A stretch of 40,973 nt of DNA from NCBI GenBank assembly GCA_007134875.1, contig SLJY01000083.1, positions 1-40,973 of the forward strand. Reading direction: 5' to 3'. Shown here in pieces: positions 2,485 through 33,127 of the stretch. A program made the translations under genes and the position numbers. Position 1 is the stretch's first letter; each line of letters begins with the position of its first letter. The DNA is from Desulfobacterales bacterium. GTDB taxonomy: Bacteria > Desulfobacterota > Desulfobacteria > Desulfobacterales > Desulfosalsimonadaceae. The notes below the pieces were generated by a model. It was given only the letters and a program-made list of their open reading frames with translations. It was not told the DNA's origin and made no database searches.

Positions 2485-2766
2485 ATGACGACCATCCGCA
2501 AGCAGATTATCGACCTGCTGGAACAAGACGATCATGACGTCCGTGAAATTTCGCAGCTTCTGGGCATCAGCGAAAAAAATGTCCATGCCCACTTCCCGCA
2601 TATTGAAAAGACGGTCTCGTCAATGGGGAAAAAACTGGTGGTGACCCCATCGTCTTGCATGGCGTGCGGGTATCGCTTCAAGGACCGAAGCCGTCACGCC
2701 CGGCCGGGGAAATGCCCGAAATGCAAGAGCGAGCGAATCAGCAAACCGCGATTCACCGTGGGGTAG
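2485..2766 (+). CDS. Small HTH plus zinc-ribbon transcriptional regulator
   Basis: The open frame extends back to 2404, but ATG 2485 with AAGGAG just upstream gives a 93-residue protein starting MTTIRKQIIDLLEQ. Residues 1-45 form a helix-turn-helix-like segment (DVREISQLLGISEKNVHAHF). Residues 55-85 carry two Cys pairs, CMAC and CPKC, forming a zinc ribbon. This winged-helix plus C-terminal ribbon layout is seen in small ArsR-like regulators of archaea and sulfate reducers; target genes are unknown. Its last 14 bases overlap the 3' end of convergent aroB. Confidence 0.7.
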   Translation: MTTIRKQIIDLLEQDDHDVREISQLLGISEKNVHAHFPHIEKTVSSMGKKLVVTPSSCMACGYRFKDRSRHARPGKCPKCKSERISKPRFTVG

Positions 2767-3814
2767 AACCATCCAGGGCGGCGACGGTTTCGGGAATAAG
2801 GGTCCGTAGAAGCGCCAGCGGGATCTTTTCAACGGCCGCCTCACCGATTCCCCGCAGCAGCACGAAATGGACCACATCCCCCTGCCGTTTCTTGTCACGG
2901 CCCAAGGCCTCGATAACGGCCGCTGCGTTCGCGTCCGCCCGAACCGGAAGATCAAGCACACCGAGCAGATTTTCGAGCCGCTCCACGGCACTTTGCGAAA
3001 GCAGTCCCTTTTCGGCCGAAAGCCTTGCAGCGAAAGCCATACCCACGGAAACGGCATGGCCGTGCCGCATCCCGGTTGTCTTTTCCAAGGCATGGCCCAG
3101 GGTGTGGCCGAAATTGAGTTTTCTCCGCTCACCCGCTTCCTTTTCATCACGGCCGACCACACGGGCCTTGATCTCCACGGATCGGGACACGATCGCTTCC
3201 ATAACACCCGGATCCAGATCCAGGGCTTTTACGCCAAGTCGCTCCAGTTCTCTGAAGTACGCACCATCGGCAATGGCGGCGTGCTTGACGATCTCCGCAA
3301 AACCGCAGCCAAGCTCGGATGGGGGAAGCGTGGCGATATGCCGGGGATCGCAAAGGACGATCTCCGGCTGGTTGAACGTGCCGATCATATTCTTGTAGCC
3401 CATGAAATTGACGCCGGTCTTTCCCCCGACGGCAGCATCGACCTGCGCAAGAAGCGTGGTGGCCATGTACCCGAAACGCACGCCCCGCAGGTAGGTCGAA
3501 GCAACAAAACCGGTGATGTCGCATACGATCCCGCCGCCGATGCCCATCAGAAACACCGAACGATCCGCCTCGGCTTCCAGGAGACGGGAACAGACATCCC
3601 GGACCGTTTCAAGGGTTTTGATCCCCTCGCCCGTGCCGATGGGTATGACGGTGCGGGCTTCGGGAAACCGGTGCCCCCATGTCCGTTGCACATTGTCATC
3701 GGTCACGATGAAAAGCGGGCAGTCTTCCGGAAGAAAGCGGGCGGCTTCTTCCATCACCTCTCCCACCAGGATCCGTGAGCGACCGGCCTGGCCCGTGATT
3801 TCATGGATTCGCAC
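2753..3814 (-). CDS. aroB: 3-dehydroquinate synthase
   Basis: A 353-residue cytoplasmic enzyme converting DAHP to 3-dehydroquinate, the second shikimate-pathway step, using NAD and a divalent metal. The NAD-binding glycine motif GGGIVCDI (93-100), substrate loop AQVDAAVGGKTGVN (123-136) and KN at 141-142 are present. The metal ligands Glu174, His237 and His253 are intact. Length is normal. The start is GTG 3814, supported by AGGAG eight bases upstream. It follows aroF after 49 bp, so the Trp-codon leader upstream of aroF probably governs both genes. Its 3' end overlaps the convergent HTH/zinc-ribbon gene by 14 bp. Confidence 0.97.
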   Translation of the reverse strand: MRIHEITGQAGRSRILVGEVMEEAARFLPEDCPLFIVTDDNVQRTWGHRFPEARTVIPIGTGEGIKTLETVRDVCSRLLEAEADRSVFLMGIGGGIVCDITGFVASTYLRGVRFGYMATTLLAQVDAAVGGKTGVNFMGYKNMIGTFNQPEIVLCDPRHIATLPPSELGCGFAEIVKHAAIADGAYFRELERLGVKALDLDPGVMEAIVSRSVEIKARVVGRDEKEAGERRKLNFGHTLGHALEKTTGMRHGHAVSVGMAFAARLSAEKGLLSQSAVERLENLLGVLDLPVRADANAAAVIEALGRDKKRQGDVVHFVLLRGIGEAAVEKIPLALLRTLIPETVAALDGSTPR

Positions 3815-3863: not shown

Positions 3864-4868
3864 TTACCTGGACAGATCGAAAATTCCTCTCACCTGGCGG
3901 CAGAGGGTTTCAAACTGCGCGGGGAGCAGGGACTGCCCGCCGTCGCATTTCGCGGTCTCCGGAGCGTGATGGACCTCAATCATCAGGCCGTGGGCGCTGA
4001 CAGCCGCCGACGCACGCGCCAGCGGCATCACCTGGTCCCGGTATCCGGCAGCATGGGAAGGATCGACAATGACGGGCAGGTGGCTCTCCCGCCGGACGAC
4101 CGGGACGGCGGACAGGTCCAGGGTGTTGCGGCTGTGCCGCACAAAGGTTCGAACCCCTCTTTCGCACAAAATGACCTCCGTGTTCCCCTCCATCATGATG
4201 TACTCGGCGGCCATCAGCCATTCATCCACCGTGGCCGACATGCCCCGCTTGAGCAGCACCGGTTTTTTCGACTCTCCAGCGCGACGCAGCAGGCTGAAAT
4301 TCTGCATGTTGCGGGTGCCGATCTGCACGATGTCCGCGTAGGCCTCGACCATGTCGAAGCAATCGAGGTCCATCACCTCGGTTACGATCGGCAGACCATA
4401 GACTTCCCTGGCCTTTGCCAGGATCTTCAGGCCTTCTTCCCCAAGACCGTGAAAAGCGTAAGGAGATGTACGGGGCTTGAAGGCACCGCCTCGAAGAATG
4501 TCACCGCCCGCCGCCTTCACATGACGGGCAATGGCCATTACCTGCTCCTCGCTTTCCACCGCGCACGGTCCACCGATAATCACAAGGCTGTCACCCCCGA
4601 TCACCACATCCCCGATGCGGATTATGGTATCTTCCGGATGAAACTCCCGGCTTACCAGCTTGTAAGGTTTTGTGACGGCAATGGTCTCCTTGACGCCCGG
4701 CAGCGTAAGGAAGAGGGACTCATCAACGGCTCCCTGATTGAACAGGACGCCGATGGATATCCGCTCGCCGCCAGGAATAGGCCGCGCCTTGAAGCCGTGC
4801 GCCTCCACTGTGCGGATCACGTCGTTTACCTGTTCTTCGCTTGCGTCCCGGCTCATGACGATCAACAT
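3864..4868 (-). CDS. aroF: 3-deoxy-7-phosphoheptulonate synthase (DAHP synthase)
   Basis: A 334-residue type I-beta DAHP synthase, condensing phosphoenolpyruvate and erythrose 4-phosphate in the first shikimate step. Residues 1-70 (MLIVMSRDASEEQVNDVI...) form the ferredoxin-like regulatory domain found in the Thermotoga-type enzyme. The catalytic barrel follows, with GGPCAVES (99-106) and GGAFKPRTSPYAFHG (127-141). The N-terminal domain suggests allosteric control by aromatic amino acids. The start ATG 4868 has a strong GGGAGG site. Upstream, a leader peptide with three tandem Trp codons and a terminator point to attenuation by tryptophan availability. aroB follows in the same operon. Confidence 0.97.
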   Translation of the reverse strand: MLIVMSRDASEEQVNDVIRTVEAHGFKARPIPGGERISIGVLFNQGAVDESLFLTLPGVKETIAVTKPYKLVSREFHPEDTIIRIGDVVIGGDSLVIIGGPCAVESEEQVMAIARHVKAAGGDILRGGAFKPRTSPYAFHGLGEEGLKILAKAREVYGLPIVTEVMDLDCFDMVEAYADIVQIGTRNMQNFSLLRRAGESKKPVLLKRGMSATVDEWLMAAEYIMMEGNTEVILCERGVRTFVRHSRNTLDLSAVPVVRRESHLPVIVDPSHAAGYRDQVMPLARASAAVSAHGLMIEVHHAPETAKCDGGQSLLPAQFETLCRQVRGIFDLSR

Positions 4869-4916: not shown

Positions 4917-4957
4917 AAAAAAGCCGCGGGGTCCCTGTCGGCCCCCGCGGCTTTTTT
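4917..4957 (-). terminator. Attenuator terminator in the aroF leader
   Basis: A 9-bp perfect GC-rich stem (arms 4923-4931 and 4943-4951) with an 11-base loop is flanked by six A and, on the minus strand, followed by six T. It lies between the stop of the Trp-rich leader peptide and the aroF start 48 bases further on, exactly where an attenuator terminator belongs. The T runs on both strands make it potentially bidirectional, but no plus-strand gene ends here. Confidence 0.85.
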
Positions 4958-4975
4958 GCTTCGATCCCTATCAGA

Positions 4976-5077
4976 TCACGATGATACCGGTCCTGGGGCG
5001 CAACCGTACATATCGGTCATGCGCCACCACCATTTTGCGGCAAACACCACATCCGCGATCTGTTTTTCCGTTCTCAT
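4976..5077 (-). CDS. Tryptophan-rich leader peptide of the aroF-aroB operon
   Basis: A 33-codon frame, ATG 5077 to TGA 4976-4978, with three consecutive Trp codons (residues 16-18, bases 5024-5032) in AAKWWWRMTD. Tandem Trp codons followed by a hairpin and then a terminator are the hallmark of trp-type ribosome-mediated attenuation. The ribosome-binding site is weak (an AGG about 14 bases upstream, or GGGCG closer). The peptide itself is expected to have no function. It is too short for ordinary gene finding. Confidence 0.8.
   Translation of the reverse strand: MRTEKQIADVVFAAKWWWRMTDMYGCAPGPVSS
4997..5025 (-). promoter_or_regulatory. Candidate pause (1:2) hairpin of the aroF attenuator
   Basis: Reading the minus strand, GGCGCA begins inside the last Trp codon and pairs with TGCGCC; an inner stem ACCG/CGGU closes a 7-base loop, with a 2-base bulge between the stems. 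This is the position of the 1:2 pause structure in a trp leader. The distal arm continues into GCCCC, which could pair with GGGGC of the terminator's first arm as a 2:3 antiterminator. That second pairing is only five perfect base pairs and is tentative. Confidence 0.6.
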
Positions 5078-5213
5078 AATCTTTTCGCCCAACCTGCCGT
5101 CCGCTTAACGACATACACCCCTTGCCGGTTCCGGCATGATATTGCCCGGAAACTTACCCAGAAAACGAATCCGGATACTTGCCGTGCCGTTCAGAAGCTA
5201 TTGCCAGACGTAC

Positions 5214-5242
5214 TTCCTACGGGATATTGTCCTTTTCGTCAA
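5214..5242 (-). promoter_or_regulatory. Possible sigma-70 promoter for the aroF leader
   Basis: On the minus strand TTGACG (5242-5237) is followed after 17 bases by TAGGAA (5219-5214). It would start a transcript about 130 bases before the leader peptide. The -35 match is good and the -10 match poor, so this is only a candidate. Confidence 0.35.
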
Positions 5243-5279
5243 GAAAAAAGAACAACGTTTTGCATGGCCGTTTTCCACG

Positions 5280-8729: not shown

Positions 8730-8852
8730 TGATTAGTAAAAACGACAATATCTGCGCCTGCGCGCAATCGAGGAAGAATTCACGTACGATAGTACGCTAT
8801 ATCCTTCTTCGATTGCGCAAGCCTTGATTCTGGACTTTTTACGAAGCCCTCA
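8728..8852. repeat. Miniature element A, diverged copy (A1)
   Basis: About 125 bp with both ends of the family-A terminus: GATGATTAGTAAAAACGAC on the left and the inverted CTTTTTACGAAGCCCTC on the right. The interior holds the family's large palindrome around GCGCAATCGA and TCGATTGCGC. No target duplication is visible. A family-B half-element abuts it on the right. Confidence 0.75.
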
Positions 8853-8856
8853 GGGA

Positions 8857-8888
8857 TTGGCGAAAAAGACGGTTTTCGTTCAGGCACC
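8857..8888. repeat. Miniature element B, right end only
   Basis: The sequence TTGGCGAAAAAGACGGTTTT continuing into CGTTCAGGCA is the terminal inverted repeat of family B. Its bases 8880-8882 (TCA) form the TGA stop codon of ptsP on the minus strand. Confidence 0.7.
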
Positions 8889-11183: not shown

Positions 11184-11849
11184 CACGGCGGCTTTTTCCT
11201 GTAAACTGATCAGTGCCTGGACGAAAACCGTCTTTTTCGCCAATTTCTGCGTCCGGCTCCAATTCGACGGACTCAAAAAAGAGAGCGATCCGACGGCTTT
11301 GTATAAAGTGCAACATCTGCGCCTGCGCGACCTTTCTAAGGAGCATTGGGATGCGCTGACGAAAGAATCGCACCATACACATCATTTTTCCAAGGAATTT
11401 GTTGCGGCGGTGTTTATAACGATGCGCTTCCTTCGCCAGCGCATACTGTGCCGCAAATACATTTTTGAAACATCCGCTTCCTTGTACAAGACAAAATTGT
11501 CAAAAATTTGCCTCAACCTTCGACGGTTGTTACCGGCACGCTCGCACAACCCCTTTGAAATTATGAAAAACAGCGTTGTTTATGCAGTCGGAGATGCATA
11601 TTGGCGCGGTTTTTGCAATATAATTTGAATGCAAGTACGGCCTATTGTGGCGGCCGAACGAAAACCAGGATTTTTCGTCAAGGTCAAGGACGGCGAAAAT
11701 TTTAACCGCAAAAAAATACCTGGCGTATTTTATGAACTAAAATTTGAGCCGAACGCGGAGACTGACGAAAAAGACAATTTTCGTTCAGCCACTATCGTAA
11801 AATAACGACAATTAAAGATGCAGGCAACATACCAACAAGAGGTGTTTCA
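11184..11849. other. Gene-free gap filled with repeat debris
   Basis: A 666-bp gap between divergent ptsP and the gamma-glutamylcyclotransferase gene. 11214-11278 is a family-B end. 11279-11345 is a degenerate family-A start (ACTCAAAAAAGAGAGCGATC, then CGACGGCTTTGTATAAAG). 11648-11795 is a complete B copy. The plus-strand frame 11299-11628 runs across this debris and looks non-coding. No promoter was identified with confidence. Confidence 0.7.
11648..11795. repeat. Miniature element B, full copy
   Basis: About 148 bp, starting TGGCGGCCGAACGAAAACC and ending with the inverted copy GACAATTTTCGTTCAGCCA. The inner segments CGTCAAGGTCAAGGACGGCG and AACTAAAATTTGAGCCGAAC match the copy at 32859-33001. 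It carries no reading frame of note. Confidence 0.85.
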
Positions 11850-25844: not shown

Positions 25845-25945
25845 TTCATTCCTCCGACTCGTCTGCTGTTACAGGTTTCAATCTGTTAAAAAAACGTCCG
25901 AAAACAATCGAACGACCATGTCACGCACCCTGAAGTATACACAGA

Positions 25946-26271
25946 GGCTGAACGAAAACCGTCTTTTTCACCAATTTCTGTGTCATGCTCAAATTTTGAT
26001 GCACTCGTAAAAAGTCGCGACCTGACGGCTTTGTAAAAAGTTCAAGATCAAGGCTTGCGCAATTTCGAAGAATGCAGAGTAGTCGGCGTACGTGCATGTT
26101 TACAAGGCGTAAGCCGCAATTTCTGAGAAATCGCGCGTAACGCAGATATTGGACTTTTTACGAAGCCGTCAGATTTTAATCCTCAAAATGCGCCCGGTAT
26201 TCCTACGGTTAAAATTTTCGCCCTCCCTGAACTTGACGAAAAATGCTGGATTTCGTTCGGCCACTGCATAT
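25946..26271. repeat. Miniature element B interrupted by an element A
   Basis: The left B part 25946-25997 (GGCTGAACGAAAACCGTCTT ... GCTCAAATTTT) and right B part 26171-26271 (ATTTTAATCCTCAAAATGCG ... GGATTTCGTTCGGCCACT) are the two halves of one B element in minus orientation. A family-A element lies between them. Joined, they restore the B sequence seen at 32859-33001. Confidence 0.85.
25998..26170. mobile_element. Miniature element A nested in element B
   Basis: A 173-bp element, GATGCACTCGTAAAAAGTCG ... TTTTACGAAGCCGTC. Left flank AAATTTT and right flank AGATTTT are a 7-bp near-match consistent with an aged target duplication. It is opposite in orientation to the copies at 16237 and 20820. 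It shows that A moved after this B copy was in place. Confidence 0.85.
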
Positions 26272-29694: not shown

Positions 29695-29884
29695 ACATCC
29701 TCCTTGTTGTCTCTGGGATAGCCGGTTTGATCAACCCTGTTCCTGTTCAAAATAGACGCAGCGGTGCGCCCTGTCAACAAGGCTTGCGGCCTCTATAAAG
29801 TACGCGGCATCAGAATGACCGGCCAACGTTTGCCTTGCTTTGCCTCCCAACTCCCGCGGCATCACTATTGCAGGACCTGTATTC

Positions 29885-30003
29885 AGTGGCTGAACGAAAA
29901 CCGTCTTTTTCGACGCTCTCTGCGTCCGGCTCAAATTGTGATGTTCAAAATTTCCACTGTCCTTGATCCTGACAAAAAAAATCCTGATTTTCGTTCGGAC
30001 ACA
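29885..30003. repeat. Miniature element B copy
   Basis: About 119 bp, AGTGGCTGAACGAAAACCGT ... ATCCTGATTTTCGTTCGGAC, minus orientation, with a diverged centre. It lies between the 84-residue protein gene and the HD-protein promoter region. Confidence 0.8.
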
Positions 30004-32747: not shown

Positions 32748-33127
32748 GATACAGGCCTCCTTGGCTTGAGGTGGGCGGTTTCGGATCTTTATCTGACACT
32801 ATCGTAAAAAATCGTGAACGGACGCAAATACTGGGCTTTTACGAAGCCGTCCTATTCGGTGGCCGAACGAAAACCAGGATATTTCATCAAGTTCAAGGAA
32901 GGCGAAAATTTTAGCCACAGGAATATCGGTCATATTTTGAGGGTTAAAATTTGAGCCTGACACAAAAACTGGCGAAAAAGACGGTTTTCGTTCAGCCACT
33001 ATCTGAATAGTAATTCCGCCCACCCGGTTGTTCAAGACGGCAAACGACGGGAGACCGCTCCTGCTGGAATGAATCCGTATAAAAAAAGGAAATGCCGACA
33101 CCAGCGCCCCTGTCCACGCAGTATCTG
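32748..33127. other. Gap made of element A fragment and full element B
   Basis: A 380-bp gap. 32799-32851 is a degenerate A end (ACTATCGTAAAAAATCGTGA ... TTTTACGAAGCCGTC), and 32859-33001 is a full B element. The remaining bases to 33127 show no gene; the minus-strand frame at 32799-33101 is translated repeat. Confidence 0.7.
32859..33001. repeat. Miniature element B, full reference copy
   Basis: About 143 bp: GTGGCCGAACGAAAACCAGG at the left, then GTTCAAGGAAGGCGAAAATT, a centre with GGTTAAAATTTGAGCCTGAC, and the inverted right end GACGGTTTTCGTTCAGCCAC. The two ends are imperfect inverted repeats of about 30 bp. No coding capacity. Confidence 0.85.

Follow-up and report, generated by a model that had tools for sequence, protein, structure and literature searches.

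The stretch of DNA analysed here, hereafter the window, is 40,973 nucleotides long (contig SLJY01000083.1, assembly GCA_007134875.1) and comes from a bacterium of the sulfate-reducer type, a member of the Desulfobacterales placed in the Desulfosalsimonadaceae. On its minus strand a short leader ORF lies between a DUF3096 gene and aroF; the DUF3096 gene (5417-5280) and an enoyl-CoA hydratase gene are found upstream of the leader on the same strand, and aroB follows aroF in the same direction. The features on which the analysis relies are the following:

5215..5243, minus strand: candidate promoter block (TTGACG, 17 nt, TAGGAA), weak, also conserved in G002, a relative at 95% identity
4976..5077, minus strand: leader peptide ORF, encoding MRTEKQIADVVFAAKWWWRMTDMYGCAPGPVSS followed by a stop; Trp-cluster leaders occupy the same place in most relatives
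5024..5032, minus strand: control codons, a run of three for Trp (TGG TGG TGG), read from the sequence
4982..5035, minus strand: 1:2 hairpin (pause or anti-antiterminator hairpin), formed between the Trp codons and the 3' portion of the leader ORF (RNAalifold consensus)
4991..5002, minus strand: region 2, potential partner of region 3 in the antiterminator (duplex tests)
4939..4951, minus strand: region 3 (GCCGCGGGGGCCG), which forms the 5' arm of the terminator or, alternatively, can pair with region 2 in the antiterminator
about 4917..4955, minus strand: 3:4 intrinsic terminator hairpin with a U6 tract (-28.7 kcal/mol)
3864..4868, minus strand: aroF, type I-beta DAHP synthase with an N-terminal ferredoxin-like domain (NCBIfam NF006421/TIGR01361; Pfam PF00793 and PF18152)
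2753..3814, minus strand: aroB, 3-dehydroquinate synthase (TIGR01357), co-directional, 49 nt after aroF

The NCBIfam matches of the two products (484 bits for the DAHP synthase, 327 bits for the 3-dehydroquinate synthase) uphold the aroF-aroB assignment made in an earlier sequence-only reading of this DNA, and aroB adjoins aroF in most loci of the family. The window aroF is 85-86% identical to the aroF of metagenome-assembled genomes labelled Desulfobacterales or Desulfobacteraceae, and its product matches the T. maritima DAHP synthase (1RZM/3PG9) over the full length; together with the PF18152 match, this renders plausible the suggestion of the same reading that the putative N-terminal sensor domain responds to other aromatics. 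The leader ORF extends over 33 codons from an ATG at 5077 to a TGA at 4976, with three tandem Trp codons, as had been described, at 5032-5024, whereas the upstream limit originally proposed, 5092, differs from this ATG and matches an alternative TTG start that would give a 38-codon ORF. Rich in the regulatory codon and predicted to be translated, the leader ORF has the character of that of a classical Trp attenuator. Both the hairpin overlapping the Trp codons and the intrinsic terminator ahead of aroF, likewise part of the first description, are present. The GC-rich stem of the latter (GCCGCGGGGGCC / GGACCCCGCGGC) is followed by the U6 tract and separated from the aroF start by a 48-nt spacer; it was missed by a simple terminator scan, probably because the stem is interrupted, and no Rfam family, including Trp_leader RF00513, reached its gathering score in a scan of the whole window. 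The 170-nt leader RNA folds at -74.8 kcal/mol as compared with -54.5 ± 4.2 kcal/mol in shuffled sequences (z -4.85). A sigma-70 consensus scan returned no minus-strand site. Upstream of the leader we also noted an inverted repeat on the minus strand (TTCCGGGCA-N5-TGCCGGAA, 5131-5153), partly kept in G002, which is possibly either a protein-binding site or a product of chance.

The upstream regions of aroF in related genomes were scanned mechanically for two features in succession, a short ORF containing a cluster of Trp codons and a terminator behind it. Such a combination was retrieved before 20 of the 28 aroF genes of the same family and before 32 of 48 genes sampled at the order level, which represent more than 20 families, while ten rounds of the same scan on dinucleotide shuffles yielded only 0-3 hits per 48; reverse complements of the order-level regions scored 9/48, probably by virtue of palindromic hairpins. 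A covariance model built on the family also detects the element upstream of aroF in further families, with weaker matches before trpE, and a search at the level of the class yielded no genomes from outside the order. The DUF3096 and enoyl-CoA hydratase transcripts arriving from upstream on the same strand need a terminator, and the arrangement could in principle be such a terminator next to a random small ORF; this chance juxtaposition is refuted by the order-wide conservation with covariation and by the near-zero shuffle control. No recognisable leader was found before aroF in 8/28 family genes and in one third of the order-level genes. Two loci (L047 and L064) have no leader ORF and keep a terminator-like hairpin upstream of aroF. 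At another locus (L196, genome G148, 973-2313) the Trp leader and aroF are separated by a gene that, by the appearance of its sequence, resembles an IS110-type transposase, and whose presence there is expected to cut aroF-aroB off from the attenuator. About 50 aroF leaders thereby become available as material for work on the evolution and loss of attenuators.

Within these leaders it is the Trp cluster and the RNA arms that stay constant. The W cluster is kept in the 21 aligned relatives, with the rest of the peptide varying around it, so that the comparison of upstream regions set in advance as a test of the proposal came out in its favour: homologous leaders retain the Trp codons in a variable peptide. 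The cluster takes the forms WWW, WRWW, WYWW, WCWWW and WLWWW, and the N-terminal part of the peptide is variable. An Arg codon often stands after or inside the cluster (WRWW, WWWR) and in the window one Tyr follows it, which could be taken to mean that the leader responds to Arg, to Tyr or to translation in general instead of specifically to Trp. We regard this as highly improbable, given that all that the leaders have in common is the Trp cluster, with Arg and Tyr varying among them (WYWW, WLWWW, WCWWW), and that the Arg codons sit in the 1:2 stem, whose pairing accounts for their presence. A similar RNA constraint explains the conservation within the family of the C-terminal residues C-A-P-x-P-V-P, since region 2 and the 3' arm of the 1:2 hairpin are made of the very codons that specify them.

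Besides its anatomy and its conservation, the attenuator displays covariation. The RNAalifold consensus of the 21 aligned family leaders consists of the 1:2 hairpin and the 3:4 terminator; the former shows compensatory changes in 4 of its 10 outer pairs with 90% of cells paired, and the latter in 4 of 12 pairs with 95% of cells paired. Taken together, both helices contain 26 double-change cells; shuffles gave 9.0 ± 2.7 of them and slid controls 2-13. The 2:3 antiterminator would pair the leader segment GYGCCC...CGG with CCGCGGGGC of the terminator 5' arm, and its arms overlap those of 1:2 and 3:4, i.e. the structures are mutually exclusive. This duplex is possible in 21/21 family leaders (-14 to -30 kcal/mol), with a mean of -20.1 kcal/mol for each genome's own pair of regions and of -16.7 kcal/mol once region 3 is exchanged for that of a different genus. 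Counting pairs over the 21 family leaders (77% of cells paired, double changes no more frequent than in shuffles) was uninformative for this helix because of little variation and clade-specific extensions, and duplex tests were therefore used. Across 29 divergent order-level leaders the complementarity between regions 2 and 3 exceeds that obtained with a shuffled region 2 (Fisher p 1.8e-11, a value that treats genomes as independent and is in truth less extreme), 16 of the 29 leaders individually reaching p<0.1, whereas the window's own duplex is unexceptional with respect to shuffles (fraction 0.34). An antiterminator exclusive of both 1:2 and 3:4 is thus supported by the wider duplex test on the order-level leaders, which points to the competition between antiterminator and terminator that the sequence-only reading had called for. 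As a whole, its proposal of a Trp-codon attenuator on aroF-aroB gains strong comparative support.

The most probable reading of the locus, to which we assign a probability of about 0.92, is that of a classical ribosome-mediated Trp attenuator preceding aroF-aroB, with AroF as the Trp-responsive isozyme of a pair existing in the wider family. Transcription would begin upstream of 5077 and a ribosome would translate the 33-codon leader. Under shortage of charged tRNA-Trp the ribosome is predicted to stall on TGG TGG TGG, thereby blocking the 1:2 hairpin, and regions 2 and 3 would then pair as an antiterminator that lets RNA polymerase read into aroF-aroB. With plentiful charged tRNA-Trp the ribosome would instead run on to the stop codon, where region 2 ends, and prevent 2:3 pairing; the 3:4 terminator would form and transcription would stop before aroF. 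Ribosome stalling, termination, dynamic switching and the dependence on Trp in vivo are all predictions from this architecture, by which transcription of aroF would probably be confined to times of low tryptophan.

How far such a switch governs the entrance of the aromatic pathway depends on the remaining DAHP synthases. The sequence-only reading held that the supply of Trp alone, and not that of Phe or Tyr, sets transcription at this step, and the window's own genome (G000, a 2.88-Mb draft) seems at first sight to agree: a single DAHP synthase was found, the other PF00793 match being about 30% identical, devoid of the N-terminal domain and similar to KDO8P synthase, and no prephenate dehydratase (PF00800) was detected in the assembly. 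However, the 95%-identical G002 and two further genomes of the same genus (G004 and G005) encode, behind a Phe-rich leader, a further DAHP synthase that is fused to prephenate dehydratase, and the draft is 89% complete and also devoid of trpE, trpD and a canonical trpB, PabBC and a distant TrpB-like protein being all that it offers, an indication that sequence is missing. The absence of the trp genes and of the fused gene from the assembly is most likely due to incompleteness, although the species may truly have lost them. We consequently hold it unlikely that Trp is the only transcriptional signal at the pathway entrance with Phe and Tyr acting just through enzyme feedback.

The same absences could suggest that the attenuator is a relic, persisting without a regulatory role after the loss of Trp (and Phe) synthesis, all the more as several genomes of the family have lost the leader and the two loci mentioned above, L047 and L064, keep a terminator-like hairpin in its place. 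Nevertheless, the control codons and all the arms are intact in the window and match through the leader those of G002, which has trpE, and a single gap in the assembly could hide an entire trp operon; such a decayed state of the element is accordingly even less probable than control by Trp alone.

The second enzyme, 53-57% identical and carrying prephenate dehydratase and ACT domains as fusion partners, is found in most genomes of the family. A Phe-rich leader (FGRFFFSFRSVHP) precedes this AroF-PDT-ACT gene in 16/16 family loci and 15/20 order loci examined, one example ending in FFFSFGRFFFFFGSVHPVV before the stop codon, and two tandem intrinsic terminators usually follow. We observed that the C-terminus of this peptide (FGRFFFSFRSVHPVV) is strongly conserved upstream of the fused aroF-pheA gene (L099-L114). 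In nearly all genomes of the same family, trpE has a WWW leader of its own. A search for TrpR (PF01371) was negative in 36/36 family genomes and positive in the E. coli control. Furthermore, aroF neighbours trpE in some relatives, trpE lying directly after aroF at one locus (L009) and divergently in another family (f22). Because of the fused gene with its Phe leader, the trpE leader, the negative search for TrpR and the adjacency of aroF and trpE in relatives, the window AroF is best read as the isozyme of the Trp branch. Control of the pathway entrance by Trp alone does not hold up against the fused DAHP synthase that relatives keep under a Phe-rich attenuator; the better reading is an isozyme-specific attenuation in which Trp gates aroF-aroB and Phe gates aroF-pheA, and pathway entry is probably partitioned in this manner in the wider family. 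For the order as a whole we find it likely, though with less confidence than the reading of the locus itself, that the entrance is partitioned by attenuation alone, with Trp acting on aroF (usually together with aroB), Phe on the fused DAHP synthase (usually through tandem terminators) and a third attenuator, again for Trp, on trpE, an arrangement that would replace the TrpR/TyrR logic of E. coli.

Trp attenuators on trp operons are textbook knowledge, and in E. coli the DAHP synthase isozymes encoded by aroH, aroG and aroF are controlled by TrpR and TyrR. What sets the element described here apart is its unusual target, a DAHP synthase, and its wide conservation, Trp attenuation as such being known. 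The E. coli isozymes resemble the pair discussed above in that separate DAHP synthases are tuned to separate end products; there, however, control is mainly exerted by DNA-binding repressors, and here apparently by leader-peptide attenuators, no TrpR having been found. With E. coli trpL (RF00513) and the Trp attenuators of the Corynebacterium and Streptomyces trpE leaders (PMC1262725, PMC8079986), the element shares a short leader ORF, tandem UGG codons, 1:2, 2:3 and 3:4 hairpins and an intrinsic terminator, but its target is aroF-aroB, in the common pathway, instead of trpE or other Trp-branch genes. Closer in target is the C. glutamicum aroF gene (cg1129), also one of two DAHP synthase genes, which is preceded by a leader-peptide attenuator with Phe-Tyr-Phe control residues (PMC4046766; Neshat et al. 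2014, as cited in PMC8079986), whereas the control residues in the window are Trp and the phylum is a different one. The uORFC-13-1 motif similarly combines a uORF and a terminator upstream of aroF, although it is reported only from Acholeplasma and unassigned environmental sequences (PMC8632094), and its U-run codes for Phe, without a Trp run. In Simkania a type I-beta DAHP synthase is likewise assigned to the Trp branch, there inside a trp operon with trpR (PMC3937554), while the window aroF lies outside trp genes, notwithstanding the trpE that directly follows aroF at L009. Our literature search retrieved neither a Trp attenuator on a DAHP synthase nor any case of delta-proteobacterial attenuation, an earlier prediction in Vitreschak 2004 or Merino 2008 being possible; the pairing of Trp and Phe isozymes by attenuators was likewise not found in the literature searched, which did not extend to key reviews.

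These findings carry Trp attenuation beyond the Trp branch, to the first step that all of aromatic synthesis shares. The pair of Trp and Phe leaders would represent a natural case in which RNA switches coupled to translation control the isozymes of a branched pathway separately, without TrpR. For a large bacterial group, most of whose members are uncultured, the findings also predict which end product controls each DAHP synthase.

Apart from the attenuator, the window contains an interspersed repeat of about 150 bp, in pieces of 84-92% identity at 11652-11794, 32861-33001, 26169-26262, 29880-29936, 11212-11263, 25943-25994 and 8851-8887. The same repeat is inserted between the attenuator and aroF in G002 and occurs upstream of aroF-pheA in G020.
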